A stretch of DNA of 64,000 nt from Branchiostoma floridae (Eukaryota; Chordata; Leptocardii; Amphioxiformes; Branchiostomatidae): assembly GCF_000003815.2 (NCBI RefSeq), contig NC_049991.1:18067347-18131346 (forward strand), written 5' to 3'. A model generated the notes under the pieces. The model was given only the letters and a program-made list of their open reading frames with translations. It was not told the DNA's origin and did not search any database. Each line of letters opens with the position of its first letter. Positions within the stretch are counted from its first letter, which is position 1. Below, piece after piece: positions 1 to 62,079 of the stretch. Made by a program: the position numbers and the translations under genes.

Positions 1-838
1 TAGAGCTGGCTCCATGAAACTTGTTTTTCGTTTACAAGGGCGGCCCCATAGCGGGCAATATAAATATTTTTTCCTGTGTGCTGAGCCAGTGGTGAGACGT
101 GGATTCAAAGTTCGTAGAGCTGGCTCCATGAAACTTGTTTTTCGTTTACAAGGGCGGCCCCATTGCGGGCAATATAAATATTTTTTCCTGTGGTGACGAG
201 AACCAATTGTATACATTCAAAGTTCATAGAGCTGGCTCCACGAAACTTGTTTTTCGTTTACAAGGGCGGCCGGCCCATAGCGGACTATATAAATATGTTT
301 TTCCTGTGGTGACGAGAACCAATTGTATACATTCAAAGTTCGTAGAGCTGGCTCCATGAAACTTGTTTTTCGTTTACAAGGGCGGCCCAATAGCGGACTA
401 TATATTTTTTTCCTGTGGTGACGAGAACCAATTGTATACATTCAAAGTTCATAGAGCTGGCTCCATGAAACTTGTTTTTCGTTTACAAGGGCGGCCCCAT
501 AGCGGACTATATAAATATTTTTTCCTGTGGTGACGAGAACCAATTGTTTACATTCAAAGTTCGTAGAGCTGGCTCCATGAAACTTGTTTTTCGTTTACAA
601 GGGCGGCCCAATAGCGGACTATATAATTTTTTTTTCCTGTGGTGACGAGAACCAATTGTATACATTCAAAGTTCATAGAGCTGGCTCCATGAAACTTGTT
701 TTTCGTTTACAAGGGCGGCTCTATAGCCAACTAAGATTTTTCCTATGATGACGTGAACTAAATGTATGTATTCAAAGCGAAATATAAATTTCTTTTGAAG
801 GTGACGTGAACCAATTGTATGTATTCAAATTGTGTGGA
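1..838. repeat. Minisatellite, ~112-bp tandem unit, about 7 copies
   Basis: A unit starting AGAGCTGGCTCCATGAAAC recurs at about 2, 116, 228, 344, 453, 565 and 677, with decayed copies to about 838. Each contains a GTTTACAAGGGCGGCC block, a TATATAAATA-like block and ACCAATTGTATACATTC. Copies alternate between CGTAGAGCT and CATAGAGCT at their junctions for part of the array, hinting at a two-unit higher-order repeat. Short reading frames across it come from the repetition and are not genes. The array runs off the left edge, so its full length is unknown. Confidence 0.95.
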
Positions 839-870
839 GCTGGCTTTATGGAGCTGGTAGGTTGGGAGCA

Positions 871-938
871 GGGTTGTACTAATAGCTCCATGGAGCTGGC
901 TCCATGGAGCTGGCTCCATGGAGCTATTAGTACAACCC
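871..938. repeat. Near-perfect palindrome
   Basis: GGGTTGTACTAATAGCTCC at the left is the exact reverse complement of the right end. Perfect arms of about 26 bp flank a core of alternating TGGAGC and GGCTCCA words. The same GAGCTGGCTCCA word occurs in every unit of the adjacent minisatellite, so the palindrome and the satellite are probably related in origin. Confidence 0.85.
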
Positions 939-985
939 CTTCTCGTTACAGCCGTGGACAGCGGAGTTTGCGTTACACAGACTAA

Positions 986-1196
986 CTGACTCCTAGTGTG
1001 TCATACAGTAGGTGGCATTGTAGGTGTTTGATGGACCCTATATCGGTGAGATTGCTATGATTGTATTCCTAAAATCTAAAATTGTTTGTCGTCAGTTCAG
1101 ACTTACCGTTGGATGTTAAATCTCGGTGACTGACTCCTAGTGTGTCATACAGTAGCTGGCATTGTAGGTGTTTGATGTACCCAGTATCGATGAAAC
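986..1196 (+). repeat. Direct repeat pair, ~67 bp, 144 bp apart
   Basis: CTGACTCCTAGTGTGTCATA begins a block at 986-1052 that recurs at 1130-1196 with a few substitutions. This is a local tandem duplication including the 77 bp between the copies. No coding content is recognised. Confidence 0.85.
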
Positions 1197-1610
1197 ACGC
1201 GTCTCAAAGTTACACCGCCCACCCAGGTGTAATCACGATCAATCTACTCTCCTCACTGGCCCCATTTGTCACCGTTGTCTGCTCTAATTGGGTTTCTCCA
1301 CCGGTTATTTACCAATTTAACGTGCGGTTTGAGGCTTTCAACGGGACCGCATGTCGTTATGGCAGGTTAAGTAAAGAGAGTGCCAGCCCTTTCAAGCCAT
1401 TAGTCCTTATTCCGAGGACTGATTTGCCCTGGATCATTGCAATTTCTCCCGCCGCGAAGTTTTGTGAGAAATTCATAATACCTAGCATTGTACTAATCAC
1501 CTATTATTATCATAACGGCTTGGCAATTGCATGCTTTTATCTTTTGATATATAGTTAAGAAATCTAGGACATAAGAACGACAATAGATTCGTTTTTCCTA
1601 TATGGGTTAC
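1197..1610. other. Unassigned single-copy DNA
   Basis: A plus-strand open frame (1142-1558) crosses this stretch but has no recognisable domain, signal peptide or splice context. Composition is balanced and no repeat was recognised. It could be non-coding or regulatory. Confidence 0.4.
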
Positions 1611-1821
<211 letters not shown>

Positions 1822-1985
1822 TGTACCGGCAAAGTAATAATATTTCTTTTTCACATTTTATCACATTTGAGTTACTTTAGAGTAGAACGATGCCGAAAAC
1901 TCGGCATTTTGGCACAATATGTGCGAGTGTTTATAGTTAAACTGAACCGCTGCATGCTGTAAACGAGCTATTCCGCCCCAAAGCT

Positions 1986-2318
1986 GAGGGCACAACCCGC
2001 CGTACGCGCAAATACGTGCTGTCTACGTGACAAAACGTAGGCAATCTTTTTTGGATCCGTAAATGGTAAGTATCGCCTCCATACGAACTCGTAGGGAATC
2101 AAAAGGAATTTGAAGCACGTAGACACGCCGTAGAACTAAACGTGCAGGCAAAACGTTGTGTGCCATCGGGCTGCGAATTCGCCCCTCCCCCCGTACGTGC
2201 CAGTACGGGCGACGCGCGTACCCTGTACAGCCTGAACGTATTCAGAAATACGTGGCGGACGTTACCTCCCAAGAAAAAACGTACAGACAAATTGCACGTA
2301 CGGCGGGTTGTGCCCTTA
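1986..2318. mobile_element. MITE with GGGCACAACC terminal inverted repeats, copy 1
   Basis: The left end reads GGGCACAACCCGCCGTACG and the right end is its inverse. The inverted match may extend outward through AAGCT. Interior sequence is rich in TACG words and is closely similar along its length to the element at 32241-32576, which sets the boundaries. There is no transposase. The superfamily is not clear, since target duplications cannot be separated from the palindromic ends. Confidence 0.85.
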
Positions 2319-2560
2319 GCTTTACTGTGCTCTGTGACAAATCGCTTCGTGATCCTGTTCTGCGCCGCATATCTTCAGGGGTTAAATGATAAACAATTGA
2401 CGTCACCGAAGGGAAATCAGCAGAGAAAACGTATTATCTACAGTTGCGCCCGTTGCTAGAATGAGAGAGAGTGATCACGAGGTAATGAAGACCTGTGCCG
2501 TTCGCTAACAGACGCCGTTATTTCTGCTATCAGTCCGCTGCCCACTCCATGCTGGTTGAG

Positions 2561-2968
2561 AGGCCAAACATTTTCATAATGTCTTCGTAGGTTTCATGGC
2601 ATGGGGGGCACGCCCCATGTAGCTATAATGCCCCCGTTCCACCGAACGGCGATCGCGATGCGCTCTCACGACGACCTAAGACGGACTTGTGTAACCTTCC
2701 ATTTCATACTGGGTATATCAAACAAAATGTAAAAGTGTGACTGTAAAGACAACCAAACACACAAAGCGTTAAAATATTCGATTTTCTTCTATAACTTTGG
2801 CGTTACATGTTATACAACTCGTTGAGCGATCCTTTAAATTTCAGGTCGCAGAGAAAGCGCGGTGAGAGCACCGTCCTAGTGGAAATGGGCCGGGGTATAA
2901 AAGGCCAACCATTTTTATAATGTCTTTGTATGTTTCATGGCATGGGTCGTAGGTCTATGTAGTTATGA
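2561..2968. repeat. ~68-bp direct repeats flanking an inverted-repeat element
   Basis: GGCCAAACATTTTCATAATG... (2561-2630) recurs as GGCCAACCATTTTTATAATG... (2902-2968), including a shared TTTCATGGCATGGG block. Between them, 2631-2895 has imperfect terminal inverted repeats (CCCCCGTTCCACCGAACGGCG against a right end containing GACGGTGCTCTCACC inverted). It looks like a MITE related to the one at 30333-30610. Confidence 0.7.
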
Positions 2969-3530
2969 GTGATTATCACTGAAGTATCGCCCACCTTTTG
3001 TGTGTTTTCTTGCGTCTTTAATTGTGTGCCACATTTTGCAAATGCTTTAATGTTGTTATTTGTGACTCAACATCCGAGCTCTGCCTCCATCATAATGCAC
3101 AATCTGCAACCGGTCAGCAATCAACACTTTGTCAGATTGCGTAATGAATTCCGTAAATAAAACATTCCATTACGATTTGTGTGTTTTTATGCCCTTTAAA
3201 TGGTATTTGTACGTCATATTTCAATTACAGATTGAAGCATTTCAAAATCTTTTTTGTTAAAAAGGGGAGGCTAGTCCTGTCAATCCTCCTTCAGAAAATT
3301 TCCTTGGATCTCAGAAAGATGCTACAAAAATAATTGTAATTTTACATGGCAGGGATTTATTATGTCCGAGGAGGTTGCGAACTTTTTCAACGCTTGGTGA
3401 GCATCTATTTGGGATGACAAACACTGGACTTGCATGTCAGTCATGTGCGTGAAAACCTGATAATTTGTCAAAGCAACTCTGAGAACGAAAGGGCACGTCC
3501 TTTGTTAGCATCAATCATCATCATCATCGT
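2969..3530. other. Unassigned DNA
   Basis: AT-rich, with no gene, tRNA or inverted repeat recognised. It ends in a short (ATC)n run just before the MITE at 3531. Confidence 0.5.
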
Positions 3531-3676
3531 ATGGACCGATCCCAAAACCCCGCCCCCTGTTCGATCATGGTTCTATTTCGAACACCTCCGTCAAAAATAA
3601 CCATTCTGACGGAGGTGTTCTAAATAGAATAGGGGGTTCTATTTGTTCGATATGGTGTTCGACAGGATCGGTCCAT
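3531..3676. mobile_element. Palindromic MITE with ATGGACCGATCC ends, copy 1
   Basis: The terminal inverted repeats are ATGGACCGATCC and GGATCGGTCCAT. Inside, CGAACACCTCCGTCA is inverted as TGACGGAGGTGTTC, so almost the whole element folds on itself. A second copy lies at 29093-29255. No coding capacity. Confidence 0.9.
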
Positions 3677-3908
3677 TGGCAGGTGATCGTCCCACGAGTA
3701 AATTGCTGGCTTTGACTCTAACATCTGACTCTGAGGCGCTAAAATGTGAATGCATCTGTTGAGACAAGCACTGCCATTGTTCCAGCATGTGGGCTTCAGT
3801 CTAGTCTATTTAACAACCATCATCAGCATCATTCACCATGAGCCTCCCTAGACTGTTTCCGTTTAGTCCCTTATCTACAAGACGAAAATCAGTAAGTGGC
3901 CATATTGC

Positions 3909-4053
3909 TTATCTCCAAGCAGATCCACGGTGGCGTAATATAGTATCAAACCCTCCGGTGCCCGTTTGACTCCCTTTGGCCGGCTATACTCCTTGTCCAG
4001 CTTTGATACTATCTTATGGCACCGTAGGATCTGCTTTGAGATTACATATATAG
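3909..4053. mobile_element. Inverted-repeat element (AGCAGATCC family)
   Basis: ATCTCCAAGCAGATCCACGG...TAGTATCAAA at the left is mirrored by TTTGATACTATC...GTAGGATCTGCTTTGAGAT at the right, giving arms of about 40 bp with a few mismatches. A related structure is at 44070-44172. It is non-autonomous and of unknown superfamily. Confidence 0.75.
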
Positions 4054-5276
4054 CGCCCACTGATAGATTTATGTGACTCGGTATTTCAAACTTGGAATAT
4101 GATGCAGGATATCAAAGTCAAAAACACAAAATCTAAAAAAAAAAGAAAGAGATTTGTTCTTTGTCTATGAAATTCCTTCGCTGGAAAAAAATAGGACAAA
4201 TATAGCCAGATGACATGCCAGTGGAGTTCCTGGTCGCAAACCATACTCCCCAACAAGTAACTCGGAACTTCTGGCATGTTATGTGTCTATATCTGTCGTA
4301 TTTCTATTATTTTTCCAGTGACCTGTGGAGCCTAGTAGATGTCTTATTAAGAGTTGCACAAGGACCTAATATTGACTTGAGTATATACGCACGTATAAAC
4401 TTGGCTTTGATTTATTTCTTACGGGTGTATCTTGGCATTATCCAGGTGTTTTCAAGAGTGTGCCTTCGTATTGCTCTATAACTATACGTTTCTTAACATG
4501 AAATGAAACTATATGTGTGGATAACTCAAGATCTGTCTAGATATCTACTTTATCCGCGACACAAACTCATTCAAACCAACAAAGATTTTCAACACCAAGG
4601 TGCAATATTTCTCTTGTGCCATGTTCTTCCGTACCTTTCTCCATTTACCTGACCATTGTAGGTGTTATATTCAGGTGTTTCTACGACAATGAAAGCTGTG
4701 CCTGTGAAGAAAAAGCCAGGTTTGTCCACACCTAATACATTGCCTCTAGGTTTTACAATGGTTACATGTGATTATTGATGTCTTTTTTTACAATTCGGAC
4801 CAAGCATCCTTTTTGTATTTCATCTACAAAAGTCTATTTAATCAATTGATAATCTGTTCTCAATTTCGTAATACACACGTCAAAACTGACTAGGAATTTT
4901 GATACTTTTCTTCAATTCGTTCTCACTAATTTAGCAATATTGATCCATTGAACATACTCAACAAGTCCACTCTTGTAAATCATTATCAGTCAGTTCAGCA
5001 GTTCAATTCCAGACCCCATATGACGAATAGAAACGATCAAAACCTGAACCATTTGATTAGCTCTACACTGTTATATAATAGATAGATGCTAGTGTACGAT
5101 GTTCTTTTATCAAACAAGTATTCGATATCATATTCTCTACATCAAAGAAATGAAGGTTGTTGATACACCAATTCTTTCATATACACAATACTACCAAACT
5201 GACTGGCTTGGAGAAAGAATACGGCTAGGATCAGTATTCTGGAGAAAACTTAAAGGGAGATTTTGGCGTGAATCCG
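4054..5276. other. AT-rich intergenic DNA downstream of the SRYamide-type gene
   Basis: No gene, SINE or LINE is recognised. A short hairpin-forming inverted repeat around ACATGCCAG lies at 4213-4280. The word GTTCTTTGTCTATGAAATTC at 4155 is shared with several elements in this window. I found no AATAAA in minus-strand sense close to the stop codon at 5277, so the 3' end of the gene is undefined. Confidence 0.5.
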
Positions 5277-5882
5277 TCATGCTTTAGGCCACACGGGTTT
5301 GCGCATGTTTGGGATGAAGGGCATCCAGCGAGCTTTTCCTCCGCCTGCCTTTTGGGGTGGCTTCTGAGCAGCGCCGCCTGCTGGTTTCTTCAGGGAGTAC
5401 ACCATGGCCCACGGAGAAGGTCCCCGCTTGTCCTCTGCAGCTCCCAGAAGTTCATTCGCTCCGGCGTCTACCAGGAAGTCGCCGTCGACGTTGTGAGGGG
5501 AGGCGAAGCCGCCGTCGGTGTTTTCCGCCGCCGAGCCCTCGTCCATCTGCCGCCCGTACCTGCTGGAAGGGAGGGCCCAGAAGTCGCCGGCGTCTCTCCA
5601 CGGCCTCTCCGGGCCGTCCTCGTCTTCCTCCGACTCCCGGCCCAGCCTGCTGGAGTGAAGCGCCACGTCGGCGTGTCGGCTGGCCTCCTGTCTGGGGTCG
5701 CCGCCCACCTCGTCCGACTCGCGTCCGTAGCGGCTGTTGTGGAGGGTGATGTACTGGAGCCCGCTGGCGGGGCTGCGACTCACCCAGGCGTGCTGCCCGT
5801 CCGACGTCACCACCGCGCCGCCCACGTTCGACCCCTCGTGCGCCATGCTCACGAGGACCATCAGGGCTAGTTGGGGAATCAT
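5277..5882 (-). CDS. Putative neuropeptide precursor releasing SRYamide/SRLamide peptides
   Basis: This is a 201-residue frame in a GC-rich island, starting MIPQLALMVLVSM. That start gives a short hydrophobic, signal-like N-terminus (residues 1-14). Three similar blocks end in SRYGR (50-54), SRLGR (78-82) and SRYGR (107-111), each followed by an acidic spacer (ESDE, ESEED, QMDE). The 28-29-residue spacing indicates internal duplication. In peptide precursors Gly-Arg is a monobasic cleavage and amidation signal. The predicted products end YITLHNSRY-amide, VALHSSRL-amide and FWALPSSRY-amide. A Lys-Arg pair at 152-153 and Lys-Lys at 165-166 precede a basic, Trp/Pro-rich C-terminus. There are no cysteines. 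The tail resembles arthropod RYamides (FxxxSRY-amide), but the C-terminal cysteine pair usual in luqin/RYamide precursors is absent, so the family is unassigned. A splice acceptor probably lies 45 bp upstream of the ATG, so a 5' exon may be missing from this model. Intrinsic evidence for a coding gene is good; function is inferred. Confidence 0.75.
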   Translation of the reverse strand: MIPQLALMVLVSMAHEGSNVGGAVVTSDGQHAWVSRSPASGLQYITLHNSRYGRESDEVGGDPRQEASRHADVALHSSRLGRESEEDEDGPERPWRDAGDFWALPSSRYGRQMDEGSAAENTDGGFASPHNVDGDFLVDAGANELLGAAEDKRGPSPWAMVYSLKKPAGGAAQKPPQKAGGGKARWMPFIPNMRKPVWPKA

Positions 5883-6425
5883 CTTCGCTCTTTTCTTCTC
5901 ACGTAGTTGGTGCTGCTGCTAAAAGAACTGGAAGAGAAAGACAGATATGTTTTCCATTAGAAATCAACAATGATATTCGGCAAACTCATAAAACGAAAGC
6001 AGAGCTAGCAGGGGAAGTATCTTTGCTCTTCTCACCTAGTTGGTACCGCTGCTAAAAGAACTGGAAGAGAAAGACGGATAGTTAGGTTTTCCATTCAAAA
6101 ATTAGCAATTTACAATTACATCTGGCAAACTCATAAGACGGAAGCAGGGCTAGCTGGTGAATCATCTCCGCTATTTTCTTCTCACGTAGTTGGTTCTGCT
6201 AAAAGAACTGGAAAAGAGAGACAGATACATGTGGTTAGGTTTTCCATTCAAACATTGACATCCGGCAAACTCATAAAACCGAAGCAGGGCTAGCTGGGGA
6301 ATCGCTTCTCTGTTTTCACTTAGTTGGAGCTGCTACTAAAATCAAAGAACTGGATGAAAAGGGTAGATGGTTAAGGTTTCCATTTCAAAACCAACAATTT
6401 ACAGAAAGATCCAGCAAAATGATTA
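5860..6425 (-). repeat. Four tandem copies (~132-148 bp) of the leader/splice-acceptor/start region
   Basis: Each unit, read on the minus strand, contains a GGCAAACTCAT-type block inverted, a pyrimidine tract ending TTCCAG, TTTTAGCAG, ACTACGTGAGAAG and then the start-codon region. Acceptor AGs fall near 5929, 6061, 6209 and 6351. The unit nearest the gene supplies the real ATG. The third unit keeps an ATG followed by a frame starting MIHQLALL, which stops after about 27 codons. The second (ATA for ATG) and fourth (GCG-like) have lost it. The array therefore duplicates the 5' end of the coding exon and could supply alternative acceptors or first coding exons. Confidence 0.85.
5928..5941 (-). 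promoter_or_regulatory. Predicted 3' splice acceptor upstream of the SRYamide-type start codon
   Basis: On the minus strand the sequence reads CTTTCTCTTCCAG followed by TTCTTTTAGCAG, a polypyrimidine tract ending in CAG. It lies 45 bp before the ATG at 5882, implying a 5' non-coding exon upstream. Equivalent tracts recur near 6061, 6209 and 6351 in the tandem copies. Confidence 0.55.
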
Positions 6426-7130
6426 ACGGACGCACAAAGTAACGCATCCAAAAATACGAGCAAAAATAGGGCAAAGAATACAAAAACCGACAGTTCTGTT
6501 TCAGTACAAAGAAAAGACGTCAAGGGACCCAGAATCGACGTTGACTTTTGTCTTTTAAAGAGCCACCACAGCACCAATTATAATCACAATCCATTCAGAC
6601 CTTCTTTGGTTATGCTTAGCACAAAGATCCCGAAACACAGACGAAAATACACACACAAGGAAACGTTTTCATGAATGTAATAACAGCAACATGCAGTAAC
6701 AACATTGACAATAGATATGATTGTACAGCTTATTGTAAAAGAAACGTGCTCAGTTCACTTGGGGCAGAATGCTGAATGGAGACAACCTTTAGAACACAGA
6801 CTGAACGTCTTCTAAAATAAGTTTCTAAGCAGAATTTTAATAATCTTCTCACCAGCCAAAATCTTAAACAAAAACGTGCATCATAAAACAGGACTTCTGC
6901 CAGTGGACCAGATAATAGAAGCACGCAGAAGAAGAGGGCTAGACCCCGTATGCAGCCTGCCACCGGTAAACGTGACGAGAGTGTCATTATGATGGGCGTC
7001 ACCAGAAAAAAGAACAAAGAGCCGACCAAAGGAAAGCAGAGTAGAACGGTAGGAAGGGTGGCAATTAGAGGTAAGGAGCCAACCGAAGGCCATTCTTTGA
7101 GCCTCAAGCGTCACCAGGCACAGAAGAGTG
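6426..7130. other. Unassigned DNA upstream of the SRYamide-type gene
   Basis: Balanced composition, no recognised repeat or protein domain. As the 5' flank of the minus-strand gene it is where a promoter or first exon could lie, but I see no TATA box with initiator that I would defend. Confidence 0.4.
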
Positions 7131-7622
7131 AATGAGTGAGTAAGTGAGTGAGGAAGCGAGCGGCCGAGTGAGTGGGTGATTGAGTGAGTGAGTGAGGGAG
7201 GGAGCGAGTGAGAAAGTGAGTGAGTGAGCGAGTGAGTGAGTGAGCATGTAAGTGAGTGAGTGAGAAAGTGAGTGAGAAAGTGGGTGAGCGAGTGAGCGAG
7301 TGAGTGAGTGAGAGTGAGTGAGAAAGTGAGTGTGTGTGGGTGTGAGTGAGTGTGTGTGAGTGAGTGAGTGAGAAAGCAAGTGAGCGAGTGAGTGAGTGAG
7401 AAAGTGAGTGAGCGAGTGAGTGAATGGTTGAATGATTAAGTGAGAAAGTAAGCGTGAGTGAGTCAGTAAGTGTGATAGTGTGAGTAAGTGAGTTAGTGCG
7501 TGCGTTAGTGCGTGAGCGAGTGAGTGAGTGAGGATTGAGTGATTGTGTAAATTAGTGAGTGAGTGAGTAAGTGAGTTAGTGAGCGATTTAGTGAGTGAGC
7601 GAGTGAGTAAGTGATTGAGTGA
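7131..7622. repeat. Long (GTGA)n-type microsatellite
   Basis: About 490 bp of GTGAGTGA with GCGA, GAAA and GTGT variants. The 189-residue minus-strand frame across it (Ser-Leu-Thr-His repeats) is a translation of the tetranucleotide and not a gene. Confidence 0.97.
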
Positions 7623-8592
7623 GTGCTGTATTGCTGAACTAAAAAAAATGCCATGTACATAATGTGTCCTCATTCACCGTCTGCATCGCAGCGATAGAAC
7701 ACTACTAATCATCTGGTTGACCATTGACCTGCACAACCTGCCTTTGAAGCCGTCTATCATCATCTTGCCTCAAATCACCCCCGTATATCGATCAACAGGT
7801 CTATCGATTGAGTCTTCAAAGTACGCTGCATCCTGTCCTGTAGAGCGCCTCTCCATTAATTTGATTTGGACTATCGACCAAGCACAACGGTTCAAACTTG
7901 CAGTCGATGTCGGTGGGTGAATCTTACTCAACGGAAATCGACAATATCAAAGGTTATAAAGAATATTTCAAATCTCTTTTTAACTATAATCTTTTTTAAA
8001 ATCTCCCTAGACAGAACCACCAAATGTAGACAAAGGTGACTTAATTTCTGTTAAAAACACGAACTTTTGTACTTAGAGTTGCTCAAAACTTCGAGGTTTA
8101 AAAACCCGTCTCCGAGGAGACAGCTAGTGTTGTAGCGAGGATTGATAGGTCAAGTATCGGCGGATGGTCTGCTACTCTTCCAAAAGAACCGTTAAGACGT
8201 CCTTACGCAACATGAAGATCGATACATGACACTTTAACAACCAACCGTTCTGCCAAGTGCAATCAGTCTCTCCGTATAAAGCACTTTCTGACCTTACGGT
8301 AACGTTTTGCATACTTATAAGTAGCCATTGGAAACAAATGGAATGGGTTGTTACACGGAATGACGTATTGAGGTCAAGTTGAAGAGTTGTAAGCGTCTAT
8401 CATAGCCAAAACACATCAAAAAGATGTGAGAATCTGGTTGAAACGCAGTTGAGAGATGGCATTATACTTGCTAACAGCACATTTCAAGAATATAAAAGAA
8501 CATAACGTAGGGTAACAGCTGGCTCAACAGTAACCCAAGCAATTGGATATAACTGTAGAGTTGTTGTAGAGTCCCTATCAAATTGGGTACCT
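7623..8592. other. Unassigned DNA
   Basis: No convincing gene or known repeat. Local composition is balanced to AT-rich. Confidence 0.45.
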
Positions 8593-8837
8593 TAAGGTGC
8601 ACTCTTACTGCACTTGCGTCACTGCATGGTTCGAAAGGTATTTAACGAATTTCAAAAATAAAAGACGAAATTTCTTACTTTCTGTGTATTTCGTCGTCTT
8701 CTAACTCGTCTTCTACTTTAACGTATTACGCCATATCTAAATTATAAAAAAATCGGAAAGAATCACAAAACAGTGACGCAGTGATCGAACCCCGCAGTGA
8801 CGCAAGCTTGACGCAAGTTCAGCGAGAGTGTACCTTT
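8593..8837. mobile_element. MITE with AAGGTGCACTC terminal inverted repeats
   Basis: The left end TTAAGGTGCACTCTTACTGC is mirrored by a right end that reads TAAAGGTACACTCTCGCTGA in inverse, each continuing into CTTGCGTCA. The interior, read on the minus strand, shares GCGTAATACG, ACGAAATACACA and a TTCGTCTTTTATTTTTGAAA block with the MITE at 31538-31782. The two are thus relatives in opposite orientation. Confidence 0.8.
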
Positions 8838-11800
8838 ATCACCTGAATGTCTAACCTTTATCGATGTGTTATAAGGACTTGAGTTTTAGTTTTAGTTTTA
8901 GTTTACACTGTACTAGAGGGCTGGCCAGTATCAGCGTGCTATTTTGTACATCGTTAACTAAATCAGAAGCCTAAATGCAATTTGTAGTTTAAGCAGAATG
9001 GCAACTTAGCACAACATAGCAACTTAATAAAATTAAGCATAGCATCCAAAGATTCAAATTCAGAATTCTAAAAGGTCTGTGCTTTCTTTTAGCAAACACA
9101 GTGAGCATTTGCCTTTTTCTATCTCAGTCTTTTCAAAAGTGCTTTCTTCCTCGGTTTTACCCATTTTGCACACAATCCGTAAATGTGGCTTAGGGGGAAA
9201 AAGAAAATTGGGAATAAAATATAATACATCCAAAGATCTGTGCTCGTGTCAAAGAAAGGGAGGGAAACTTGATAAAAAAATTGATGAGCAGCAATTATTT
9301 TCCGCCCGTCCTATTTAGCTAGATGGCTCATTCATTTGCGAATTCCCTTGGGTGTCATCTTTGTGGTAAAAGAATAATGACCGATGTTGAGTAGTCCTAT
9401 CGGTAATTACCGTGGTGAGGGATAAAGACTTCACAATTACCAGATGGATTGGAGATAAAAGTTGCTGTCACTGGTCGTAACATTCATCATTCTTTCAGTT
9501 TGCAGCGCTGTTTTTCTTTCTTTCTTTTCGTTATTGACTGAATCAGCCACGCTGTATGCAATGCTACATTTTAGGTTTGAGTCGAAAGTTTCAGCTGGGA
9601 ATAAGCAGAATTCTAAGTTTGAAGGTCTGCGTTTCATTTTGGAAAAAAAAAGCAGTGGGATTTTGATCTCCTGATCATTTCTTTATATTCTATGGAGAGC
9701 TTTCACCCAGTTCCCATGTTGATGCATCATGTAGGCGCTGAACGTCGTGCATCGAAGCTTAACATTTCTGAAATTTCGCATTTCACCGAAGACTTCTACA
9801 ACGTTCTATACTCTCTTCTTTACTATCCAATTGTATAACGTGTGTTTTATCAATCTAATATTCTTCAATGCCTGGATGGATAATCTTCAAAAATACAAAA
9901 TTTCTATACCAAATCTTTTATTTTTATCTTATGGCACTATTAATTGTGAACTCTGAACATTTCATAGTAGTTATGGAAGGGGTTTAGAAGATACATTATT
10001 GGTCGTGGCCATACTTTATATCGCCAAAGTTTGCTATAGATGTATTCCCTGAAGACCTAAAATTCTTTTTCATGCATAGTTTAATATTAATGCACATTTA
10101 GTGTTATCATCTACAAAAAAACAACAACAGGTATACATTTTTTTTATCATTTGCAGTGGACGAGTCCAACTTTATATCATAGTACGTTGCCACCCGTATG
10201 GCCATTATTGTTTCAAGTACCGTTCACGGTGACATGTAGCATTGCTCTCTTGCCAACAAGTGGCCTTTCTATCAGAAACTACATCATGGCCAATATTGAA
10301 CAGAACAGGGAAACAAGGATGTGCTATGTCCAGTTCGAGCACTTTTGCGATATAAATACACATTGAGTCATGATTTGGAACACTTTTAAACCATCAAGTG
10401 TTTCTAAGCTACGCACCAGAGATAAGCAAGATAGTTAAGGCACTGTTAGTTGTTGCAAATTTGAAATTTACTGTCGACCAACGGGTACAACGTATGTTAA
10501 TAAGCGGCAGCAAATGTAAATGTTTACATTTTCATGTAACGAAATGAATGAATATAATATTACGAGAATAGACTGATATACTGCAATGATACTACCTAGA
10601 ACCGTCTGCTCAGTGGTAATTCTAAAAACACACCATTTGAAATTCAAATTAGCATGATCATTTAAACTAGATGTTAAATGAAGAAACTCATGATAAACGA
10701 TGTAAAACCAATAACCCTAGTTAAAAGAACGAAATGAAAGTGAACCTCAAATAGGAGTGAACGTTTCTCAAGGAATCACCTTCATATGGCTTCATATCTT
10801 TATGTAAGGTAAATTATAGCGTTGTTCATATTTACATTGCGGCAAATTCCCAAGGTGGTCATACCACAAACCCTATAAGCCATGATAGTTTGAACTAGTG
10901 CAAGCCTGGCTTATGTAGGCTTTTAAACAGATGGTGACATGTCATATGAATTATTTTTTATTGCAGTTCAAAGTTGTTTATCCAAATTAAAACTATAATT
11001 TTGAAGCGATATGAGATATTCATCTTTTTAATCATTAAGAACAGACGTGTCCAACTTGGCTTTTTTTCTCAATTTTTGCGAACTTTCGTCCTGAAATTGC
11101 GGTACACAATTAACTCAGCAATGCCTATTAGTAGCAACAGGCATTGGGAACGTCAACAGAAAATGAACACTAGAACTATGGCTTCGACATTACTTATTTA
11201 AGAAGTCAGATTGGGCAATGCCAAATCCGCAGTAGCGCACTTACAGAAGCGAAGCGGTGCGCCTAGAAATATATTCATTACAGTAGAAAAAATTATCAAA
11301 GAAGTTAAAATTCACGACAGAAAATATACCAAGCAATGAAATACGTAACCATAAGCTTTTAGTGTATTGAGAAAAGGATAAAACTATGAAAACAAGACCA
11401 CTCCTTTGCCAGGGGCCTTGTAGAGGTGGTTGTCACTGGCAGTTATTAGTCTCATTGCCTTGTAGATTACAGTTATGGCGCTTAAGCTGCTTAACCATAA
11501 GACATAGCACACAACTACGTCTGTTTATTTAAATTATTCAAAGCAGAATCGATCCTTGCACTGTCTTATTGTCTTATATTACCAAATCTAAAAATTAGTA
11601 ACGAAAAAGAGGAGAGACTTATATCGAAGCGAGTTGTAACCAGTAACAATCTGTGGACCATACCTGAAGTTGATCGCTGCTATGCTGCCGTTTCACTGTA
11701 CGAATGTGTGACACAACGCAGGGTTTGCTAGATATATCTATACATGTGACGTTGTAATGTACGTGTAGTAATGTTATAACAGTAAGGTAGTCATTGGTCA

Positions 11801-12430
11801 TTGGTACTTCGTATGAATGACGTTCAGGTCATGGCGTAACCATTACTAGTTGTTGATTGGTTGCAAATATGAAAGCAAAAGCTTCGAACCAGAACCGCCG
11901 TGTTTTTTGTTGTTGTTGTTCATTCGGTAAGGAAAAAAGCTACTGGTACGGTACATAACAGAGGTTAGATACAACTGCTCATGCATAAACATTTGCCATA
12001 TTCTTATCATCATGCACGATAGTGCAGATTTGTAGTACTAGCGTAAGTAGATACACCCAAAGTAAGTGCTGTTGACATATATTGGGAAGAAAATCAATGT
12101 GTCTGTTCTCTGAAAGCTCACGTCTGAATAATGTACAATCGGTATCGGAATACACAAAAAAAATATTGACTTGAAAGTTCATCCGTGTTGGTATAAGTCA
12201 TTATTGAACTGCAATATAAAAAACACAAAAATTGGACTCATCCAAATTTTCGACTGAACAGCACCAATGTTTTTCAAGGAATGAGCAATATATACTCAAT
12301 ACAAAATGGTAAAAAATAACAGAATAAACAGGTGGGCCTAGGGCATGGTTAAAATTTTCCCCATCGTTCAGGTTCCCCTTACGTTGAGAATGGATTATAT
12401 CTGAAGGCTAAGAGAAAAGGCACATATGCG
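8838..12430. other. AT-rich intergenic DNA
   Basis: Apart from a short (TTTTAG)n run near 8881-8906, I recognise nothing here. Short open frames are scattered on both strands and lack domains or splice context. Confidence 0.5.
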
Positions 12431-12433
12431 GCG

Positions 12434-12660
12434 TCGAATGGCAGAATGGCTAGGCTAGCGGGTACGAGATGGTGAGGTCTCGGGTTCGACTCCTGACATT
12501 CTTTAATGTACACAACTTTCCTCACTGCAATCAGGTGTAAAAATGAGTATAAAGGGTGATATGACTTAAAAGACGATGGAGAATGATGGGCTCCACCTTA
12601 CACCACCGTGCTCTGGACACAGTGGATAACAAACCACAGACCCTTCAACCTCAAAAGGCT
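12434..12660 (+). mobile_element. tRNA-derived SINE
   Basis: A tRNA-like head has an A box (TGGCAGAATGG, 12439-12449) and a B box (GGGTTCGACTCC, 12482-12493). It is followed by TTTCCTCACTGCAATCAGGTGTAAAAATG, equivalent to the tail domain of the SINEs at 26115 and 24011. The tRNA-like part has extra bases and no clean acceptor stem, so it is a SINE and not a functional tRNA gene. Confidence 0.75.
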
Positions 12661-14879
12661 CTAGGACTGCAAAATTACCTATTTTTAATGATCAAATTAG
12701 TTTTAAAATAGAAGATAAGACACGATTGTCCTAGCTGTAAAATTGCAGATTTTGTAGATAAAAGCAGACCTAATTATATCTGCTAAAAGAAGAACCCCTT
12801 ACTGGAACCGACATTCATGGCCCAAATGTCTCCAGCAACATCCATTTAACCTTTGTATTGATTCTTGAAAGACTTATCGTTACTCTTCTTCAGTGTGATT
12901 GTGAACAGACCTGACTGGCCAACTATCCGTTAACCTACTAACTTCTAAAGTTATATAATGAGATCTACTGGCCCATTTTCGTGTTTTTTTTTGTCCTTTT
13001 TGCTTTTGGAGAATAGCCAGTGAAGCCAATTTCCGTCTTTTGGAGTAGCACTTACACAGAGGAAGAGAATGAATAGAATGCATAGAGAAGCATTGCATGC
13101 GTTTTCAAATTTAAAGATAGAATTTCCATACCTCACATTGTCTCCCCTTTGTTCAGTTCCGTTCAGTCAAGTCTAGGTAATCCACCAAGGATGATGATAA
13201 GTAAAGCGTAACGAATTGTTTTGCAAGGAGAAAACGCTTTGCAGTCAAATTCTGTCTGTGAATTTGCGCGGGAGTCACAGTGAATGGTTTTACAAAATGG
13301 AATACTAGTACTCTTCTCCAGAGATTCTCCTGCTTTTTCAGGAAAATTAAAATATTAAATGATAAAGTAAAATCTGTATTTTCCATCTACCTAACTTTTT
13401 CCTACAATGACTAGCCCTATAAAGAAGCTGTCTTTCATTGGCTGTAATTATAGTACATTCCCATTTCGATAGTCATTGTGTTTGGCTATTTGTAGAAAAA
13501 GATGTTAGCTAATCACAAAAAAACAACACGATACGCCAATTTCTAGACGATTATACTTTTGGGAAAATACAGTCAATATGCATCTAGTCATTGACAAGTT
13601 CCTCATCAACACCTGATAGACAAGCATCAAGAATGTGTGATATATCAAATTGTTTTTAATTTTACCAAAATACATACGACAGTATTAAAGTGAATATTTC
13701 AAACAACTTCGTTTCTTTCGGAATCAAGCAATGGGTGCTAAAAGATAATTTTTCCTGGAGGTAAAAAATATCATATTTCCTTTTCATCATCATAGATGTA
13801 TTTTTCATAAAAGTCATAAATATTTGCCTTGTTCACTTCTATATTATATTTATATCTAATTTATCATTATTAGAATATTAGATATATGTTTGGCCAAGAA
13901 ATAGGAAAAAAAGCGTTGTTCATTACAGAAAAATTAATGCCGTGCGTCAGAACCCTGCTGACGAGAGCCAATGTACCTACTGCGGATCAACAGGTCTTCA
14001 GTCGGGTGTTTCTGACATCAGGGAAAATCCGCCCGAGAACGGAACAGGCCGTGAGCCAAAGTCAATGAGCCGGAGATAATAGAAACCAACGTAGATAACA
14101 CGAAGATCAAAGCTGAAGGCGTTCGGTTTGACTTTCTGGAAATGCCTTCTTCACGCCTTGTGGTCATTGCGGAATATCCAAACGCCACGCTGCATCATGA
14201 AAAGCATGACACAAGCGTTGGGAGACCGGCATCGCCCAAGGTGCATCTACTGGACAAAGCTTGAAAGACCATTGCTTGAAAAGTAAACATAAAGTCGTTT
14301 ATTTTCTTTGCAACGTACGAAAAAGTTGAAAGCAGGGCCAGTCCCGTGTGAAACGATAGATTAGCCGGAGGTGAAAAGGGTCATTCGACGATCAATGAAA
14401 GCAATATGAGAAAGTATTTCTATGGACGCCTTCCATATCGCCGGCATCAGTCTGTAACGATGGGATTGCCCGGGATAAGGCTAATACACGCCCCGAAACA
14501 GATCCTTAAAGCACTGGGGAATGCTGAGATAATACACCGGCTGAGATGCCCCCAATCATTCACTCAATGATTGATGGAATTTTATCCCACCTGTAATGAC
14601 GACCTGTTTTACTTTTTCAAAATGATCGTTTTTAGACTACAAGTTAATATATATACAATACTGTCAAGATATCACAATCAGCAAAAACCGTCGGATTGTA
14701 AGTCTGAGATCTTCGCCTGGTCCCTTTTTTCCTGCTTTAAAAGAAAAGTATCTTTACCATCCCTTACCTTATCTGGGCCCTCAAGAACAAGAAACAAGCT
14801 ACTTAAGATGGGAACGCACACACCAAACACAAGTCTTGATCGACGTACCTGGTCTTCTTCGCTCCTTTTCGGCGCGTAA
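12661..14879. other. Unassigned DNA
   Basis: No gene or repeat family recognised. The stretch 13400-13880 is strongly AT-rich; 14100-14560 is more balanced. Confidence 0.45.
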
Positions 14880-15130
14880 GTCGCTCCTGCTGCGATTTTG
14901 ACAACCTGTTGTCTGGTACGGAAGCCGAAGTTCTCAGTCCGCGGTCCTCCGGCTGCCGGCTTTATTCCTCCCGGCGATGATGAGATTTGTAAGTGGGCGA
15001 AAGCGTCACTCTCGCCTCTGTTCAGGCTCCGCCAATGCTATTAAACAGCCTGAGCGGTTGCCAGCCGTCCCAGCGGATTCTCGTATGGTGAAGACGTCAT
15101 TAAGCTTTAATTGATTTGATGCACTGCCCA
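14880..15130. other. Possible conserved non-coding / cis-regulatory DNA
   Basis: A GC-balanced, non-repetitive block with homeodomain-type words (ATTAAGC, TTTAATTG) and no open frame. It stands out from AT-rich flanks. The call rests on composition only. Confidence 0.25.
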
Positions 15131-47745: not shown

Positions 47746-48120
47746 TCAATTGTCCAACAGGTCCTGCTGCCTCGCCTGAATCAGGTCCGCCACGAGACGC
47801 AGAACGGCCGACCGGGTCAGTTGGTCCGTCGGGTCTTCTCTGAGGTTGGGCAGCCGCATCCTGGCCATGGGTTCCCTCTGGGGCGGCAGCGTGAATCTCG
47901 GCTGGGGAGCGGTGTATTCTGGCCACAGGTCGGAGTCGGAGTCGTCCTCGGAGAGGGAAGAGGGCGGGCTGCGCCGGCCGAAGCGGAGCGGCTCGAAGGC
48001 CTCGTTCCAGTTGACGGCCGTCATGGGCTTGGCCTGGCTCCTGCGAACAGGGATGGACTCCGCGCCGTCTAGGTACACCAGGCAGCTCAGCACTGCAACT
48101 AGGGCGGTGGACAACTTCAT
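47746..48120 (-). CDS. Putative RFamide neuropeptide precursor
   Basis: A 124-residue product starting MKLSTALVAVLSCLVYLDG, a classic signal peptide (cleavage near A20-E21 or S22). Arg-Arg at 26-27 and Gly-Arg-Arg at 48-50 bracket a single 20-residue peptide ending NWNEAFEPLRF, with the glycine as amide donor. It is therefore expected to be secreted as an RFamide. The rest is an acidic, Pro-rich spacer (54-72), a QPRF word without amidation signal (73-76), and a Leu-rich helix-like C-terminus (100-122). The NWN...LRFG spacing recalls kisspeptin (NWNSFGLRF) with two extra residues, while PLRF recalls LPXRF/NPFF-type peptides; neither assignment is secure. A methionine 20 codons upstream is in frame, but the TATA/initiator pair puts transcription start just upstream of it and MKL gives the better signal peptide. 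No intron is needed. The region is GC-rich relative to its flanks. Confidence 0.85.
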   Translation of the reverse strand: MKLSTALVAVLSCLVYLDGAESIPVRRSQAKPMTAVNWNEAFEPLRFGRRSPPSSLSEDDSDSDLWPEYTAPQPRFTLPPQREPMARMRLPNLREDPTDQLTRSAVLRLVADLIQARQQDLLDN

Positions 48121-61274: not shown

Positions 61275-62079
61275 TTCATCACCCCAATTGTAATTGTTGT
61301 TTATTGTTGTTTATTAAGAAACCTTTTAGCCCTCACGGGCTAATCTTCCAAGGTTCAATCAACATGAATACATACATTTAAAAAAATACAACAATCACAA
61401 AGTATTTACAATAGAGTACAATAGAGTACAGTGTCTAGAGGTCAGAGGTCTAGATGACAATGTTTGAGATAGCTTGTTTAAAACTGGACAATGTACACAG
61501 TGACTTAACGTCAGATGGCAATGAGTTCCAGAGCATAATTGCTCGGTACAGAAATGTACGTTTTCCACTGTTTGTTTTAGCTTTGGGTAGTCTGAAGTTG
61601 TTGGATACAGAAAATCTAGCATTATACATGTGGGATGAATTAACTGGTATGAAGGAATTATACACATTTTGTGGTTCGTGGCTAGTGAGGATTTTGAAGA
61701 ACATAATCAGAGTACATAAAGAGAATCTCTTTCTCACTGTGGGCCAACCAAGCTCAAGATGCATCCGCCTAACAGATGTGTCCGATGAACATTTTAATAA
61801 CAGTCTACACGCTCTATTTTGTACTATCTGCAGTTTTCTCATATTTGAATCTGACATACTGGCTAGCACTGGTGAGCAATATTGCACTACTGATAGCACC
61901 AGGGCTTGAAGTACCGGCTTACACACATCATCAGGTATATAACAAGCATATCTTCTAACATAGGCTAAGTTTCCTGAGAGGTTTGTTACAAGATATTTGG
62001 CATGAAGATTCCAAGTTAGTGACGGGTCCATATGTAAGCCCAATAGGACTGCTTCGATTACTTGTTCAACTTTCTCTTA
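61275..62079 (-). mobile_element. 5'-truncated non-LTR retrotransposon (ORF2 C-terminus and 3' UTR)
   Basis: The minus frame (61450 to about 62079) encodes the end of a reverse transcriptase: VIEAVLLGLHMDPSLTW, then QYCSPVLASMSDSNMRKLQ, QNRACRLLLK, a LGW..VRKRF segment and the terminal MLWNSLPSDVKSLCTLSSFK. These are the conserved thumb and C-terminal motifs of Jockey/CR1-type ORF2. An in-frame stop at the upstream edge and loss of the finger/palm domain mark 5' truncation. The 3' UTR contains TTAGCCCGTGAGGGCTAA, a hairpin, and ends in AATAAACAACAATAAACAAC, a simple-repeat tail, at about 61290. Confidence 0.93.

Follow-up and report, generated by a model that had tools for sequence, protein, structure and literature searches.

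A candidate single-exon precursor of SRYamide and SRLamide peptides in Branchiostoma floridae that matches none of the neuropeptide families tested

An uninterrupted 201-codon frame runs from 5882 to 5277 on the minus strand of the window (the whole 64,000-nucleotide stretch of Branchiostoma floridae DNA analysed here). An earlier note on this DNA had given these coordinates without a strand, and they prove to be the exact Met-to-stop span. The features of the locus, and of a second, separate neuropeptide-like precursor, are listed below.

5277..5882, minus strand: proposed precursor coding sequence, 201 amino acids plus stop, uninterrupted (open reading frame list; frame-specific conservation of the units)
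5841..5882, minus strand: proposed signal peptide, MIPQLALMVLVSMA (hydropathy rank; its end placed, conditionally, by the -3,-1 rule)
5727..5774, minus strand: predicted peptide 1, SPASGLQYITLHNSRY-amide, with the amide glycine and an Arg next (basic sites, mass)
5643..5675, minus strand: predicted peptide 2, HADVALHSSRL-amide (basic sites, mass)
5556..5594, minus strand: predicted peptide 3, DAGDFWALPSSRY-amide (basic sites, mass)
5391..5423, minus strand: GPSPWAMVYSL, between KR and KK, the sole stretch bounded by two dibasic sites
5862..6424, no strand assigned: tandem array of about 140-bp units in four copies that match in part; it extends over the opening codons of the coding sequence and holds the upstream acceptor-like sites
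47746..48120, minus strand: second neuropeptide-like precursor, 124 amino acids, single-exon, with NWNEAFEPLRFGRR (PLRFamide)

The encoded protein, MIPQLALMVLVSMAHEG...PVWPKA, contains three amidation units: SRYGR at residues 50-54, SRLGR at residues 78-82, and SRYGR at residues 107-111. The full units are, in order, ITLHNSRYGRESDE, VALHSSRLGRESEE, and WALPSSRYGRQMDE, spaced by 28 and 29 residues; after them come, in turn, acidic spacers with net charges of -3, -5, and -9. They end in NSRY, SSRL, and SSRY, with RY in two of the three and RL in the third. Repeated peptide-Gly-basic units separated by spacers are the general mark of an amidated neuropeptide precursor, and the frame has them. The frame, which the earlier note had called secreted-looking, has a hydrophobic start, ranking third by N-terminal hydropathy (a hydropathy measure only) among the 78 ATG frames of at least 60 amino acids. 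The putative signal peptide is short, which counts against the precursor reading.

The words R[YFWL]G[RK] occur 13 times in the six frames of the window, and the three in which S precedes R are the three units themselves; another match, LRFGR, falls in the second precursor. Shuffling the residues of the protein 200,000 times never gave two or more SR[YFWL]GR words and gave one such word 271 times. In a control blind to the motif, some four-letter gapped word had to recur at least three times; 12 of 5000 shuffles did this, which is not a vanishing proportion.

The strongest coding test is the internal, frame-specific comparison of the units. Over 14 aligned codons (42-base units), BLOSUM62 scores between units are 51, 39, and 34 in this frame and at most 32 for any pair in the other five frames. 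The units agree at 27, 32, and 21 of 42 comparisons at codon positions 1, 2, and 3, and pS between units is 0.45-0.72 against a pN of 0.27-0.33, on small numbers. They are also similar when their last two residues are left out (p = 0.0003, 0.021, and 0.015). Because the BLOSUM62 scores are frame-specific, the codon positions agree unequally, pS exceeds pN, and the upstream residues are similar, we conclude that the units were kept as peptides, in a selection-like pattern of conservation. GC at codon positions 1, 2, and 3 is 0.68, 0.52, and 0.80, close to the values for the second precursor (0.64, 0.50, and 0.85, taken on 47762-48120, without its last five codons). A codon table trained on the second precursor only gave this frame the highest score of the six, 103; with 94 for the best antisense frame, this test has little discriminating power by itself. 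The claim of SRYG, SRLG, and SRYG units in one cysteine-free frame is thus borne out by translation, shuffles, and frame-specific conservation, and the frame is very probably a real precursor of amidated peptides.

The start codon has an A at -3. Between 5853 and 8000 there is no TATA-like word, and the ten acceptor-like sites of that interval all fall within 5916-6350, inside the tandem array; an intron of the 5' UTR could plausibly end beside the start. Past the stop, candidate poly(A) signals occur at distances of 435 and 861 bases. The copies of the array contain acceptor-like sites, a GTGAG donor-like site in three of them, and vestiges of the opening codons of the coding sequence; the array is apparently a multiplied 5'-UTR/acceptor region. 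Elsewhere in the window are a satellite-like array at 1-727 (112-bp unit, 6.5 copies), a long GAGT microsatellite at 7126-7625, and a 208-residue open frame at 61453-62076 on the minus strand that gave no Pfam match and looks like the terminal part of a reverse transcriptase from a non-LTR retrotransposon.

Neither the 201-residue protein nor the second precursor matched a Pfam family at E values up to 10. Ten other open reading frames of the window had no Pfam match at the curated cut-off, and two of the six frames of 1-15001 had sub-cut-off matches only, a coverage in which flanking genes may have gone unnoticed. Each of two PDB queries returned a single unrelated match (E = 2 and 0.18), no Rfam family or tRNA was found, and three queries found no relatives in viral contigs. 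In the open-access literature searched there was no neuropeptide paper containing the peptide strings, and among the matches listed for 'SRYamide' and its variants there was no neuropeptide work.

After removal of the signal peptide from the prepropeptide, a furin or prohormone-convertase enzyme would cut after single arginines. A carboxypeptidase would then trim the Arg, and the glycine would be converted to the amide, giving SPASGLQYITLHNSRY-NH2, HADVALHSSRL-NH2, and DAGDFWALPSSRY-NH2, of 11-16 residues, with computed amidated [M+H]+ values of 1805.929, 1204.655, and 1483.696. The N-terminus of peptide 1, after WVSR, is the least certain of the predicted ends. The RYGR, RLGR, and RPWR sites have an upstream Arg at P4. 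In amphioxus the PQRFa peptides, identified by mass spectrometry, are reported to be flanked by KVSR, RSGR, or RFGR (PMC4077772); the RYGR and RLGR sites here are of the same kind, and WVSR is like KVSR except that the basic residue at P4 is missing. Cleavage at a single arginine is also described for Daphnia RYamide (PMC7041311). The earlier argument that monobasic processing marks a separate family therefore fails, because the amphioxus PQRFamide precursor and Daphnia RYamide share such cleavage.

GPSPWAMVYSL is a possible fourth, non-amidated product, with a computed [M+H]+ of 1207.582 as the free acid. A likeness to spexin, noticed by eye, was rejected together with galanin on a shuffle test, in which 86 of 600 shuffles did as well against spexin and 117 of 600 against galanin; for kisspeptin-10 the figure was 551 of 600. 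None of these three comparisons gave the stretch a family.

The three predicted peptides were each compared with 13 reference sets, leaving out the last two residues. None of the 39 comparisons reached p < 0.05, the reference peptides being few, only some of them taken from papers, and the power on seven residues being little. The lowest values belonged to peptide 2, with 0.074 against insect RYamides and 0.084 against amphioxus PQRFa.

The frame could be an NPY-type or PrRP-type candidate of B. floridae already in print, or an orthologue of one. Reports on this species describe an NPY-type peptide with an RYamide end, a candidate of the PrRP type with an RFamide or RYamide end, and PrRP-type receptors; the candidates were compared by description only. 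The RY-amide end is common to the NPY/NPF family, and a YI-L can be seen by eye before it in unit 1. PrRP-type precursors of deuterostomes share the RF/RY-amide end, followed in starfish PrRP by a monobasic site (PMC7314547). According to that paper, NPY/NPF genes have an intron between the second and third base of the RF/RY Arg codon, and in PrRP genes, also in that of B. floridae, a phase-one intron interrupts the part coding for the peptide. In the genomic sequence our frame is continuous through all three units and their Arg codons, with neither intron, and identity with the NPY-type RYamide candidate is disfavoured because the NPY intron rule does not hold here. The predicted peptides are three short units, unlike the PrRP-type peptides of 20-31 residues (PMC7314547), and they lack the 36-40 residues and the conserved P, Y, L, Y, and I of NPY/NPF. 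Their alignment to NPY and PYY is not significant (363 and 973 of 2000 shuffles were as good, using human sequences), nor do they resemble starfish or human PrRP (p 0.12-0.89 in six comparisons, the B. floridae candidate not being among them). We think it unlikely that the frame is one of these candidates.

The second precursor raises a relationship of another kind. It starts with MKLSTALVAVLSCLVYLDGAES..., carries the single peptide NWNEAFEPLRFGRR, and lies 42 kb from the frame at 5277-5882 on the same strand. Some 90 bases before its ATG, at 48215-48208, stands the word TATAAAAG. Its WNEAFEPLRF aligns without gaps to WDEAWRPQRF of amphioxus PQRFa-1 (p = 8e-5), against p = 0.019 to 0.19 for the four other references in the same test, and the precursor is probably of the GnIH/NPFF type. 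Two NPFF/GnIH-type precursors with PxRFamide and LRFamide peptides are reported in B. floridae, and the second precursor fits that pair, matched by description only. By itself, and indirectly, the likeness to PQRFa-1 makes a lancelet host likely. The SRY/SRL precursor might then be a far-diverged lancelet paralogue of the NPFF/PQRFamide type. Besides the nearness of the PLRFamide precursor, the Branchiostoma japonicum PQRFamide precursor, of the GnIH/NPFF type, is similarly built, with a 624-bp ORF, three amidated peptides, and RFGR, RSGR, and KVSR sites (PMC4077772). B. floridae is also reported to have an expanded set of NPFF-type receptors, along with three of the PrRP type. The C-terminal PxRF-amide is absent from all three units; amphioxus PQRFamide peptides end in WRPQRF-amide, and the SRY/SRL peptides show no significant similarity to them (p = 0.83, 0.08, and 0.63) or to the neighbouring PLRFamide precursor (p = 0.27). 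Such a paralogy seems to us improbable.

A luqin/RYamide-type precursor kept in a chordate after loss of its cysteine pair would account for the SRY-amide ends, which are common to Daphnia NPERFFIGSRY-amide (PMC7041311) and C. elegans LURY-1-1, PALLSRY-amide. Arthropod RYamide precursors can likewise hold several peptide copies, and Daphnia RYamide is cut at single arginines (PMC7041311). Luqin precursors typically have two cysteines, a C-terminal pair usually 10 residues apart, and some flatworm and tardigrade precursors are reported to have lost one or both. As the earlier note held, the pair is absent here: the 201 residues contain no cysteine, and C-x10-C shows no excess in the downstream minus-strand frames (the first 5 kb hold 2, the other bins 1-8). 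The note had also likened the units to arthropod RYamides ending in FxxxSRY-amide. The published motif is FXXXRY-amide (PMC7041311); the SRY-amide is shared with Daphnia, but the F position is L in all three units, which leaves the last three residues to carry the likeness to arthropod RYamides, and one unit is SRL. Molluscan luqins end in WRPQGRF-amide and ambulacrarian luqins in RW-amide, as reported, and here two units end in RY and one in RL. The predicted peptides show no significant similarity to nematode, insect, mollusc, and starfish peptide sets (p 0.07-0.97). That luqin signalling is absent from chordates, another statement of the earlier note, agrees with published accounts in which a luqin receptor is not found in chordates. 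We judge luqin retention very unlikely, and we give slightly less credence still to the broader proposal of a luqin/RYamide system that survived in some chordates, with a cysteine-free SRYamide/SRLamide precursor of three copies retained in lancelets by descent from luqin.

That the frame is no expressed gene, being instead a degenerating copy or a frame left open by chance where the DNA is GC-rich and open on both strands, with a start codon at the edge of a tandem array and a codon score only slightly above the antisense one (103 vs 94), is highly improbable given unit conservation confined to this frame with pS above pN, the lack of any stop or frameshift, and a coherent precursor layout.

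We consider it likely that 5277-5882 encodes, within one exon, a neuropeptide prepropeptide that belongs to no family tested. It is an orphan by family because it has the defining features of none of those families; on the features compared, membership in the luqin, NPY, PrRP, and NPFF families fails, which does not bar the predicted peptides from functioning like those of these families. The first interpretation of the locus thus stands as to a secreted-looking, cysteine-free precursor with two SRY units and one SRL unit, and falls as to its monobasic argument. Its suggestion of a separate, convergent family is the reading we prefer, on other grounds: the cysteine pair is absent, the residues before the last two are not significantly similar to the peptides compared, and there is no NPY- or PrRP-type intron. 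Judged from its sequence, it is best read as an orphan RYamide precursor, perhaps confined to lancelets, whose peptides would act through a receptor of the RFamide/RYamide type. We infer that they might act on a rhodopsin-beta GPCR of the clade binding RFamides and RYamides (NPFF-, PrRP-, or QRFP-type). The SRL unit may be more or less potent than the other two, or it may be a copy undergoing drift.

If expressed, the frame would add an RYamide precursor to a lancelet in which, by the accounts available, receptors for RFamides and RYamides outnumber the described ligands. It would supply three defined peptides to set against the NPFF- and PrRP-type receptors of lancelets, and it would bear on the choice between repeated origins of RYamide ends and a remnant of luqin signalling in the chordates.
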